A program made the position numbers and the translations under genes. Positions 9,470 to 15,598 of a stretch of 64,000 nt of DNA are shown here, one piece after another. The notes beneath the pieces were generated by a model. The model was not told the origin of the DNA and did no database searches. It was given only the letters and a program-made list of their open reading frames with translations. Source of the DNA: Bacilli bacterium (GTDB lineage: Bacteria; Bacillota_I; Bacilli_A; RF39; UBA660); NCBI GenBank assembly GCA_017513865.1, contig JAFWMN010000005.1:1-64000 (forward strand), read 5' to 3'. How positions within the stretch are numbered: position 1 is the stretch's first letter; each line of letters opens with the position of its first letter.

Positions 9470-9484
9470 CTCTAGCACCTCCTT

Positions 9485-9593
9485 AATATAAAAACTCTAC
9501 ACATTATGCGTAGAGTAAAAGACTTATTATAAATCCTCGGTAGGAAATTAAGCTTACGCACCTACTGTCTACGGCATAATATTTTTCATTTGC
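9485..9593 (-). ncRNA. L10 leader (ribosomal protein L10 autoregulatory mRNA leader)
   Basis: The minus-strand RNA contains the conserved pieces of the Firmicutes L10 leader: GACAGTAGGTGC, then CTTAATTTCCTACCGAGG (9535-9574), which fold back on each other. A 9-bp hairpin (ACTCTAC ... GTAGAGT, 9494-9516) with a TTTTATATT tail follows just before the rplJ ribosome binding site, so control by attenuation is likely. In the known mechanism L10 (with L7/L12) binds the leader and lowers expression of rplJ-rplL. Confidence 0.88.
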
Positions 9594-12882: not shown

Positions 12883-12888
12883 TCTTTT

Positions 12889-12922
12889 TTAATAATAAAA
12901 CCTAACTTATTCGTTAGGTTTT
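12889..12922 (-). terminator. Terminator of the riboswitch-controlled operon
   Basis: A 10-bp stem (AAAACCTAAC / GTTAGGTTTT, 12897-12922) with loop GAATAA on the minus strand, followed by an AT-rich tail. The inner stem and loop are identical to those of the murC terminator at 14274-14295. Confidence 0.8.
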
Positions 12923-12927
12923 ATTAT

Positions 12928-13686
12928 TTATATTCTACGATAAACTTTTTGTTTGTTTTCTTCTGGATTATCATTTGTTCCTACGCCTAGTAATTCTAAT
13001 AATTGAAGGGCTTGTTCTTTGGTAGTTATTTTATCCATTATTTCTTCAATTGTTGGAACGCTCACACTACTAGTTAATGTTTCAGTTACTACTTTTGTAG
13101 CATCTTTGACTTTTTCAGCTTTTTCTACTTTTTTCTGCTGTCTTTTTTCTATACTATTTTTATGTTTTTCTTTATATTCTTCTATTCTTTTTAAGTTATA
13201 CTTTTGCATTAGAACGCAGTTAGCATTAATAAGCATAGTTAAACTATTAAACCCCATTAAAATAGCAGCCATAGATCCACTTATTAAAGCGGTCTTTAAT
13301 AGGACTATGATACCTATAATTGTTACCATGTTAAGTACTATTCCTTTTATGTGTACTCTTTTGTTCCAGTTTAATTCAGCAATAGTTTCTTCTAAATTAT
13401 CAAAATTTATATGATAGTTTTGGTTTTGTTTTAAGTTTCTTTCTTTTCTTAGTCTTAGTGTTAATAATTTATAATTATTTATTATTCTTTGTTTTTCTTC
13501 TTCTGTTTTAGCTTTAGCTAATTTTCTTTGTGTTTTTTCTTTTAATTTTCGCTCGTTATTTGCGTAGCTGTTTGGAAAGAATTTTTCTATTACTTTATAT
13601 TTTTGCTTTTCTAGGAAAAAAACAGCTTTTTGGCTTGCTTTAAACCATGATTTAACTATTTTGTTATAAAGTTTTGTTTTTGACAT
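12928..13686 (-). CDS. Unknown membrane protein with flanking coiled coils (second gene of putative Mn2+-responsive operon)
   Basis: No family recognised; 252 residues from the ATG at 13684-13686, which has GAGGTG seven bases upstream. Residues 1-110 are basic and helical (KEKTQRKLAKAKTEEEKQRI), likely coiled coil. A hydrophobic block follows with two membrane segments (GIVLNMVTIIGIIVLLKTAL and AAILMGFNSLTMLINANCVL). A second charged helix (EEYKEKHKNSIEKRQQKKVEK) and a Thr/Ser-rich linker come next, and the tail is an acidic helical motif. The start lies inside the end of the preceding gene (23-base overlap), so the two are translationally linked. It does not resemble MntP, TerC or P-type ATPase exporters that usually follow this riboswitch class. 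Confidence 0.8.
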   Translation of the reverse strand: MSKTKLYNKIVKSWFKASQKAVFFLEKQKYKVIEKFFPNSYANNERKLKEKTQRKLAKAKTEEEKQRIINNYKLLTLRLRKERNLKQNQNYHINFDNLEETIAELNWNKRVHIKGIVLNMVTIIGIIVLLKTALISGSMAAILMGFNSLTMLINANCVLMQKYNLKRIEEYKEKHKNSIEKRQQKKVEKAEKVKDATKVVTETLTSSVSVPTIEEIMDKITTKEQALQLLELLGVGTNDNPEENKQKVYRRI

Positions 13687-14038
13687 TTCCTCGCACCTCA
13701 CTATCAATTTCATCGTCAAATTCGATAAATTCAGTTAATCCTTCTCTTAGCTCTCTTAATTCATCTTCAGATAGTGTTTGTATATACTGGTTTGTTGTAT
13801 CTAAATTTTGTACGTTTTTTACTACACCGTCTGTATTTATATCATAAATCATCAAAGATGTTCCGATTGACGAACATGTTACTCCAGCAGATGAACACAT
13901 AAGTGAAGTAATGAAACTAGCATCGCTACTTTTACCATCTTCTCCACTTGAAAAGCATGTGGAACTGGTGATAAAAGCGTAACCACCTAAGGTTATTATA
14001 AATCCTCCCTCACCTAAAGATTGAAAAATTTCAAACAT
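13664..14038 (-). CDS. Unknown small Ser/Cys/Gly-rich membrane-type protein (first gene after putative Mn2+ riboswitch)
   Basis: A 124-residue protein with no recognised family. The first 65 residues contain two hydrophobic, Gly/Ser/Thr/Cys-rich segments (GGFIITLGGYAFITSS and FITSLMCSSAGVTCSSIGTSLM) that could form a membrane hairpin; three Cys lie in or near them. The second half is hydrophilic and acidic (SEDELRELREGLTEFIEFDDEIDSE). AGGAGG stands eight bases before the ATG. It overlaps the downstream gene by 23 bases. Acidic clusters could bind divalent metal, but that is only a guess from the riboswitch context. Confidence 0.78.
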   Translation of the reverse strand: MFEIFQSLGEGGFIITLGGYAFITSSTCFSSGEDGKSSDASFITSLMCSSAGVTCSSIGTSLMIYDINTDGVVKNVQNLDTTNQYIQTLSEDELRELREGLTEFIEFDDEIDSEVRGNVKNKTL

Positions 14039-14090
14039 ATTTTTATCCTCCTTTTATTCTTTTTCTTTATTTTATAATTTAAATGTATAT

Positions 14091-14222
14091 AAGAAAAAGC
14101 AAGACATTATACATTTAAATGTACAAAAGTCTTGCTTAATATTTTTTAATATCACTTAATCCGGAAATATAATTTCGACTGACGAGTTAAGTTTTTCAAA
14201 GCTACTCCCTTTCGGACGTGTT
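14091..14222 (-). promoter_or_regulatory. Probable yybP-ykoY (Mn2+) riboswitch with terminator platform
   Basis: The minus-strand leader holds CACGTCCGAAAGGGAGTAGC, then CTCGTCAGTCG, and closes with TTCCGGATTAAGTG (aptamer about 14151-14220). GGGAGUAGC and the CGUCA element are the hallmark loops (L1 and L3) of the yybP-ykoY class, and UCCG/CGGA with CAC/GUG can close its base helix. The predicted transcription start lies right at the 5' edge of the aptamer. A strong hairpin (AAGCAAGAC / GTCTTGCTT, 14097-14137) with tail TTTTTCTTAT follows as expression platform. L1 has three G rather than the usual four. In the known class Mn2+ binding favours read-through. Confidence 0.75.
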
Positions 14223-14224
14223 AT

Positions 14225-14253
14225 ATACTATCATAAAAGTCTTTTTTTGTCAA
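14225..14253 (-). promoter_or_regulatory. Promoter of the putative Mn2+ riboswitch operon
   Basis: Minus-strand TTGACA (14248-14253), 17 bases, TAGTAT (14225-14230) with TG one base upstream. Transcription should begin near 14218, exactly where the aptamer starts. Confidence 0.82.
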
Positions 14254-14265
14254 ATTCTTTTTAAT

Positions 14266-14297
14266 TATTAAAAAACCTAACTTATTCGTTAGGTTTA
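14266..14297 (-). terminator. Terminator of the tad-murC operon
   Basis: Stem AACCTAAC / GTTAGGTT (14274-14295) with loop GAATAA, which contains the murC stop codon, followed on the minus strand by TTTTTT. The stem-loop is identical to the one at 12899-12920. Confidence 0.85.
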
Positions 14298-15598
14298 TTT
14301 AATTCTTTATATTTTTCTATGTACTTGTTTTCAAAATCAGTAAGATCGTTTGGACTCATAAATAATATTACTGAATTATGATGATTTAATAAGCTATCAA
14401 AATTATCTATTCCTATTTTTTCAGCGTTTGGTATTTCTTTTATAATGTCTTCGGAGGTTATATTAAAGTCTTCCTTCTTTTCTCTAGCTCCATATATTTC
14501 CATTATATAAGCTTTATTTACTCCTTTTAAAACGTCTATATAGTCATCTTTAAAAGCTTCAGTTCTGGTATAGGTGTGTGGTCCCCATACAGCAACTATT
14601 TTTTTGTCTGGATATTTTTGTTTTGCTGATTTTATAGTACATTTTAATTCTGTTGGGTGGTGCGCATAGTCATCAACTAGAATATTATCTAAAACTTCAG
14701 TTTCTGAAAATCTTCTTTTGGCGCCTTCAAAGGTTTTAAAAACTTTAGCAACTTCTTTAGCATCTAATCTTTCATAAAAACAAATTCCAATAACAGCTAA
14801 AGCATTTAAAAGCATGTGTTTACCATATACAGGAATATCGAAGTGGCCGTAGTAGTTTTCTTCAACAAAGACGTCAAAGGTTACGCCGTTTTCGGTATAT
14901 TCAACATCTTTGGCAATTATGTCGTTATCTTCATCAAGTCCATAGAAGAAGATTGGTTTATTTATTTCTAAGCTGTGAGTATATTGATCATCACCACAAG
15001 CTATAACCATTTTTTCTGCTTTGTTGGCATATTCAATATAAGCGTCTCTAAGGTCATCCATATCTTTATAATAATCAACATGATCTAGTTCAATGTTTGT
15101 GATGATAGAATAATATGGTTCGTAGGCCAAAAAATGTCTTTTATATTCGCAGGCTTCTAATACAAAATATTTGTTATCTTTATTAGCACTTCCAGTACCA
15201 TCACCTATTAGGCAGTTTGAACCTGAAATATTATTTAATACGTGATGAAGCATTGAAGTTGTCGTGGTTTTTCCGTGACAGCCTGCTACAGTTATTGTTC
15301 TAAACATTTTAGCTATTTTAGCAACCATTTCTGGATATGTGTATATTTTTAGTCCTTTCACTTCAGCTCTTATTAATTCTGGATGGTCATCTTTAATGGC
15401 ATTACCTCTAATAATTGTCATATCTTTAGTGATATTATCTTCATTATATGGAAGAATTTCAATATTTCTTTCATTTAGTCCTTTTTCAGTAAAGAAATGC
15501 TTTTCTTGGTCGCTTCCTTTAACTTCATATCCTAAATCGCTTAAGATGCATGCAAGTGCGCTCATGCCAGTCCCTTTAATTCCAATTAAATAATACAT
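14282..15598 (-). CDS. murC: UDP-N-acetylmuramate--L-alanine ligase
   Basis: ATP-dependent ligase that adds the first amino acid of the peptidoglycan stem peptide in the cytosol; 438 residues. The N-terminal GIKGTGMSALA loop binds the UDP sugar. The ATP loop GCHGKTTTTSML and the central ELDHVDYY and DDYAHHPTE motifs are complete. It starts 10 bases after tadC with AGGGGG upstream, so it appears to be the last gene of the tad operon, an unusual place for murC. Its presence shows that this organism makes a cell wall. Confidence 0.96.
   Translation of the reverse strand: MYYLIGIKGTGMSALACILSDLGYEVKGSDQEKHFFTEKGLNERNIEILPYNEDNITKDMTIIRGNAIKDDHPELIRAEVKGLKIYTYPEMVAKIAKMFRTITVAGCHGKTTTTSMLHHVLNNISGSNCLIGDGTGSANKDNKYFVLEACEYKRHFLAYEPYYSIITNIELDHVDYYKDMDDLRDAYIEYANKAEKMVIACGDDQYTHSLEINKPIFFYGLDEDNDIIAKDVEYTENGVTFDVFVEENYYGHFDIPVYGKHMLLNALAVIGICFYERLDAKEVAKVFKTFEGAKRRFSETEVLDNILVDDYAHHPTELKCTIKSAKQKYPDKKIVAVWGPHTYTRTEAFKDDYIDVLKGVNKAYIMEIYGAREKKEDFNITSEDIIKEIPNAEKIGIDNFDSLLNHHNSVILFMSPNDLTDFENKYIEKYKELNKPNE

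Follow-up and report, generated by a model that had tools for sequence, protein, structure and literature searches.

A Mn2+-type riboswitch module that precedes many unrelated small genes in a family of uncultured bacteria

Introduction

RNAs of the yybP-ykoY class are used for predicting Mn2+ export genes. The locus described here raises the question of what such an RNA controls when neither of the genes that follow it looks like an exporter. It lies on the minus strand of a 64 kb stretch of bacterial DNA (hereafter the window), where an RNA leader stands upstream of two small genes, designated prot1 and prot2. An earlier note on this DNA had proposed that the pair forms a new type of Mn2+-export or Mn2+-stress module. 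We therefore consider in turn the class of the leader, the way in which it might act, the genes that it precedes elsewhere in the family, and the two proteins themselves.

Results and discussion

Architecture of the locus

On the minus strand, murC (14282-15598) is followed by a promoter, the RNA leader, an intrinsic terminator and the two small genes. The promoter (14225-14253) is of the sigma-70 type by its sequence, with a -35 element TTGACA (14253-14248), a 17-nt spacer and a -10 element TAGTAT (14230-14225), and it is kept in all paralogous copies of the module. The expected transcription start at about position 14219 corresponds to the edge of the aptamer, in agreement with the near-consensus promoter and start point that the earlier note had described. 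An AGGAGG sequence is located at 14052-14047 on the same strand. The prot1 gene (13664-14038, minus strand) encodes 124 amino acids, with a hydrophobic N-terminal half rich in Ser, Cys and Gly and a C-terminus that reads ...NVKNKTL. The prot2 gene (12928-13686, minus strand) encodes a helical protein of 252 amino acids with a predicted hydrophobic hairpin at about residues 118-158 between coiled-coil helices. The two open reading frames indeed overlap, by 23 nt. Elsewhere in the window, positions 9480-9592 of the minus strand carry an ordinary ribosomal protein L10 leader (77.5 bits).

Class assignment of the leader

A covariance model with 22 pairs (R1) was prepared from 40 aligned yybP-ykoY aptamers of named genomes, which were gathered by a motif scan of genome_contigs and from which the window was left out. 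R1 matches positions 14120-14217 of the minus strand with 53.1 bits (E 5e-12), the sole match in 64 kb, although this score is partly circular because the window also fits the scan pattern of the training set, and its anchor motifs therefore cannot count as independent support. What is independent is comparative: 27 relatives show pairing and covariation in the stretch between the anchors, and the same genome has two further copies.

The aptamer comprises helices P1.1 (14214-14209:14129-14124), P1.2 (14202-14200:14136-14134), P3 (14191-14183:14163-14155 and 14176-14172:14168-14164) and P4 (14154-14148:14143-14137), with a GCAAGAC element at 14135-14129. Alignment A4, which holds 27 family sites as rows, was fitted to the model structure, and this favours pairing somewhat, but the margin is large: 93.5% of cells are paired, versus 26-50% after the partners have been shifted by 1-3 columns. 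Two-sided changes are present in 19 of the 22 pairs, and none of 500 shuffles reaches the observed values. The weakest helix is P4, with 73%.

These results bear on whether the motifs might be a chance resemblance in an AT-rich genome, as could be argued from a folding z-score of 0.17 for the aptamer alone and from the failure of Rfam model RF00080 to yield a match over its cut-off in the window, in its own genome or in 145 family genomes. However, the same model missed all seven canonical leaders used as controls, TerC and ATPase leaders among them, and so its negative result is uninformative and is not evidence against the leader. Checks with RF00080 and for covariation in homologous leaders had been suggested in the earlier note; the first fails here as it does for the controls, whereas the covariation is present. 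Chance resemblance is refuted by the R1 match, the covariation and a terminator in 27 of 27 sites, which leave it a negligible probability. The library copy of RF00080 at issue (‘Manganese’, 177 positions) finds 0 of 7 canonical yybP-ykoY leaders, and surveys based on that copy will undercount the class.

R1 also matches two other sites of the same genome (49.0 and 48.1 bits, with the window copy scoring highest), one site in a genus relative (42.7 bits) and further sites in 15 of 150 genera of the family sample. An exact motif search across the family matched the window alone, because most family members carry U-A where the pattern had C-G. Matches to looser patterns within the genus were read as coding sequence or chance and were rejected, and no copy of the promoter-aptamer-terminator module was found in viral contigs. 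At the level of sequence and predicted structure, the leader is thus confirmed as a genuine yybP-ykoY (Mn2+-type) riboswitch, as the elements listed in the earlier note had indicated.

Published structures place Mn2+ between loops L1 and L3, with the N7 of one invariable L3 adenosine as the discriminating contact, and identify P1.1 as the switch helix, whose stabilization blocks the terminator (PMC6754395, PMC9190785). The window leader shares with the Lactococcus lactis yoaB and Xanthomonas oryzae RNAs an L1 of GGGAGUAG (14202-14209), an L3 of CGUCA (14180-14184) and the N7-donor adenosine, and likewise a P1.1 3′ strand common to the intrinsic terminator (PMC6754395, PMC9190785). L1 is invariant in all 35 family sites read. 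The A of L3 at position 14180, the counterpart of the Mn2+-contacting A41 of L. lactis, is intact along with both loops, and this position is A in every aligned family site. Unlike those two RNAs, the window aptamer is a short form that lacks the P2 hairpin, the P1.2 C-G pair is usually U-A in the family with the terminator arm changed to match, and the genes downstream are not Mn2+ homeostasis genes.

A terminator that competes with the aptamer

The intrinsic terminator, AAGCAAGAC...GUCUUGCUU followed by a run of U nucleotides, occupies positions 14091-14137 (minus strand), with a stem of -18.0 kcal/mol formed by 14137-14129:14105-14097 ahead of the U nucleotides. Within its 5′ arm lie the 3′ strand of P1.2 and part of that of P1.1, and formation of the terminator excludes the aptamer fold. 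A competing U-tailed hairpin that captures the P1 3′ strand is present at all 27 aligned sites, the window included, and the two arms change in step: they read GCAAGAC:GUCUUGC in the window, ACAAGAC:GUCUUGU in most relatives and ACGAGAC:GUCUCGU in three others (L190, L192 and L199). The strong terminator reported in the earlier note is therefore present, and it competes for the P1 strand.

By its anatomy the leader should be a transcriptional ON switch, with metal binding and read-through as the predicted steps. The promoter, aptamer and competing terminator all stand upstream of prot1 and prot2, which supports the reading that the riboswitch drives the two genes. With little metal present, the nascent P1 3′ strand (AAGCAAGAC) would fold into the terminator and transcription would stop near position 14091. 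Mn2+ would dock L1 on L3 through A14180 and hold P1.1 and P1.2 in place, such that the terminator could not form and prot1 and prot2 would be transcribed. A nearest-neighbour model gives -9.2 kcal/mol for the aptamer fold versus -30.1 for the terminated state, and metal docking must therefore do the work.

Duplication of the module and insertion after murC

The promoter-aptamer-terminator module of ~190 bp is present in three copies in its own genome, before three unrelated gene sets, and also in other genera of the family, before many small lineage-specific proteins. Between the promoter and the position just ahead of the start codon, the three copies in the genome of the window share 85-88% identity, and the genes downstream are unrelated. 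In two other genera, a genome carries a pair of modules with 97% identity, over 141 bp in one case and 198 bp in the other, before unrelated genes (L199/L200 in G250 and L178/L196 in G391). Since near-identical modules precede unrelated genes within the same genome, new genes appear to have received the module by its duplication as a whole.

In four close relatives (G034, G006, G035 and G005), murC is directly followed by orf176, orf182 and secE, and the site is empty. In the window, murC and orf176 are separated by the module together with prot1 and prot2, and 45-nt direct repeats with 82% identity stand on either side of these. The upstream repeat (14260-14304) is the murC terminator and the downstream repeat (12885-12929) is the terminator after prot2; each contains the terminator sequence CCTAACGAATAAGTTAGG. 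The comparison with the four relatives shows that the module and its two-gene cassette are a lineage-specific insertion at this junction. Because other genomes of the genus carry different small ORFs downstream of murC (L234, L235 and L236), this junction may be a hot spot at which orphan genes are inserted.

Genome G006 carries a decayed copy of the module (L171, contig C24). A second copy in that genome (L149, contig C55), located near polA, has an intact aptamer module and drives just a 12-codon ORF; the counterpart of this region in the genome of the window (L146) carries a lipoprotein gene. Such copies might suggest that the window leader, too, is a riboswitch that travelled with its promoter but has decayed, and that it now acts only as a weak promoter-terminator unit. 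However, the window copy retains every pair and loop, shows a full match in its P1 and terminator arms and outscores the other copies of its genome, which makes decay highly improbable here.

Genes under the switch across the family

General bacterial yybP-ykoY leaders, which have the same aptamer and were the source of R1, mostly precede TerC, P-type ATPase, GDT1 or Na_Ca_ex genes: in a set of 75 first genes, these families account for 35, 8, 8 and 2, respectively. A known cation-exporter family stands before 1 of 35 sites in the window's family, versus ~53 of the 75 first genes of the general set, a total that assumes no overlap between the four family counts. At the family sites found first, none of 39 downstream proteins belongs to any of the four families. 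In this family the module instead precedes many unrelated small genes, and lipoproteins, Band_7, AdoMetDC-like and orphan proteins are encoded downstream of the 35 sites.

These targets fall into recurrent groups that are mostly unnamed. Group A proteins are lipoprotein-like, with the pattern ...NTVPV...FGTP (L146, L179, L189 and L198); group B proteins have ~193 amino acids (L147, L181, L182 and L192, and later L227); and group C proteins have ~175 (L178 and L180, and later L221, a double copy by inspection). Groups D (L185, L188, L222 and L224) and E (L190 and L195) are Nuc_deoxyri_tr2-like and AdoMet_dc-like, respectively, and a further group is of the Band_7/HflK type (L187, L193 and L226). 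In L182 (1711-2316) two ORFs stand in place of the single group B gene of L181 and L192, probably because of a frameshift or an assembly error. A second draw at the order level yielded eight new sites, all from the same family, one of which (L225) controls an Na_Ca_ex exporter (E 6e-67). No Nramp gene (PF01566) was found in the genome of the window. Because the family switch precedes so many unrelated proteins, a position under it does not by itself mark an exporter.

This distribution could mean that the RNAs are yybP-ykoY variants with altered metal specificity, responding to another divalent ion, which would explain a gene set not devoted to Mn2+ export. The gene contexts are markedly unlike those of the general set, the contrast in exporter frequency would also fit a changed ligand, and such variants have been predicted in a review (PMC7266159). 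In addition, five family sites carry a U-to-A change in L3 (CGACA in L146, L185 and L222; CAAYA in L193 and L226). However, the adenosine whose N7 specifies Mn2+ is kept at all sites, L1 and L3 of the window are fully canonical, and one site controls an Na_Ca_ex exporter. The remaining gene context leaves room for altered specificity, but we regard it as unlikely. The intact metal site and the exporter at L225 favour Mn2+ as the ligand, and we infer that this is the ion sensed. Among the L3 changes, those of the two Band_7/HflK-linked aptamers, L193 (G186) and L226 (G507), replace CGUCA with CAAUA and CAACA and compensate the closing pair, and these RNAs are a candidate specificity variant.

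The proteins encoded by prot1 and prot2

Searches with prot1 and prot2 gave no match above cut-off in Pfam or NCBIfam, and no profile match to the MntP, TerC, GDT1, P-type ATPase, Na_Ca_ex or CDF families of Mn2+ exporters; the earlier note, by eye, had likewise placed both proteins outside the families known for the class. Only weak matches (E 0.026 or worse) were obtained with the PADLOC and PHROGs collections of anti-phage defence and phage proteins. The structure model of prot1 has low confidence (pLDDT 46). That of prot2, built with eight sequences, shows long helices and a hydrophobic hairpin (pLDDT 80, pTM 0.59), and a fold search against the PDB retrieved generic helical bundles alone (best E 0.66). 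We regard the two proteins as a predicted membrane-associated pair.

In Vibrio parahaemolyticus, the Mn2+ detoxification genes for MneA and TerC are reported to lie downstream of the Mn2+ riboswitch (PMC13274385). The genes there are controlled by the same riboswitch class as prot1 and prot2, but they encode known exporters, and the window proteins resemble neither MneA nor TerC.

Homologues of prot2 with 31-37% identity are encoded at other loci in seven other genomes of the genus, and in five of the seven a prot1 homologue adjoins. No aptamer was found near these seven loci even with filters off; the best candidate (12.6 bits over 29 nt) lies inside a coding region. Because the prot2 homologues occur without the aptamer, the gene pair can be separated from the riboswitch and does not form an obligate Mn2+ module. 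No relatives of prot2 were found in genome_contigs or viral_contigs.

The proposal of a new Mn2+-export or Mn2+-stress module draws on the facts that prot1 and prot2 would be transcribed from this switch and that both are predicted to be membrane-associated. It does not survive the comparison well: seven genus genomes have homologues without the aptamer, neither a metal-transport family nor a transporter fold was matched, prot2 has a single hydrophobic hairpin that by inspection carries no acidic membrane residues, and unrelated proteins stand under the same switch elsewhere. We therefore consider this proposal very unlikely. Prot1 and prot2 would be a small membrane-associated pair recruited by the module, not demonstrated exporters.

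A shared C-terminal motif

A K[T/K]L motif recurs at the C-terminus of many proteins under the switch, often as KTL followed by a few residues, as in prot1 (...NVKNKTL), L179 (...VKTLR), L196 (...IKTLK) and L200 (...NKTLKK). Among 26 first genes, 9 have KTL somewhere in the final ten residues of their products, compared with 6 of 433 background genes (p 5.5e-9, post hoc); a simple ORF rule was used to take these background genes from parts of five related genomes and from the window. When each protein group is represented by a single member, KTL is found in a mean of 5.8 of 18 groups; no tripeptide reached 6 when sets of 18 background tails were drawn at random 20,000 times. At the eight later sites, KTL is present in 0 of 8 and K[T/K]L in 3 of 8, versus 17 of 433 in the background (p 0.004). 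The motif was noticed before testing, and its enrichment is suggestive. It is conceivable, though doubtful, that the duplicating module maintains a family-wide metal-responsive regulon whose K[T/K]L tag is read by common machinery for sorting, compartment loading or proteolysis. A 157-aa orphan protein of the same genome (L203, 8457-8930), found without a riboswitch, ends in KTKTLK and is a possible further carrier.

Conclusions

The best explanation overall, which we hold to be probable, is a Mn2+-class ON riboswitch module that has been duplicated onto orphan genes, prot1 and prot2 among them. Rather than a new export module, the locus is better described as one instance of an ON riboswitch module of the Mn2+ type, copies of which precede orphan accessory genes across this uncultured bacterial family. 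By spreading through duplication, the module would make the expression of orphan proteins, whether of the envelope or accessory, depend on metal.

For this family, in which targets are mostly orphan proteins despite an intact aptamer, the usual guilt-by-association inference fails. Whether some yybP-type RNAs respond to other metals, as has been proposed (PMC7266159), could be tested on natural examples from this family, notably the Band_7-linked L3 variants. The family also provides an example of a riboswitch module that, promoter and terminator included, appears to have been copied to new genes within one and the same genome.
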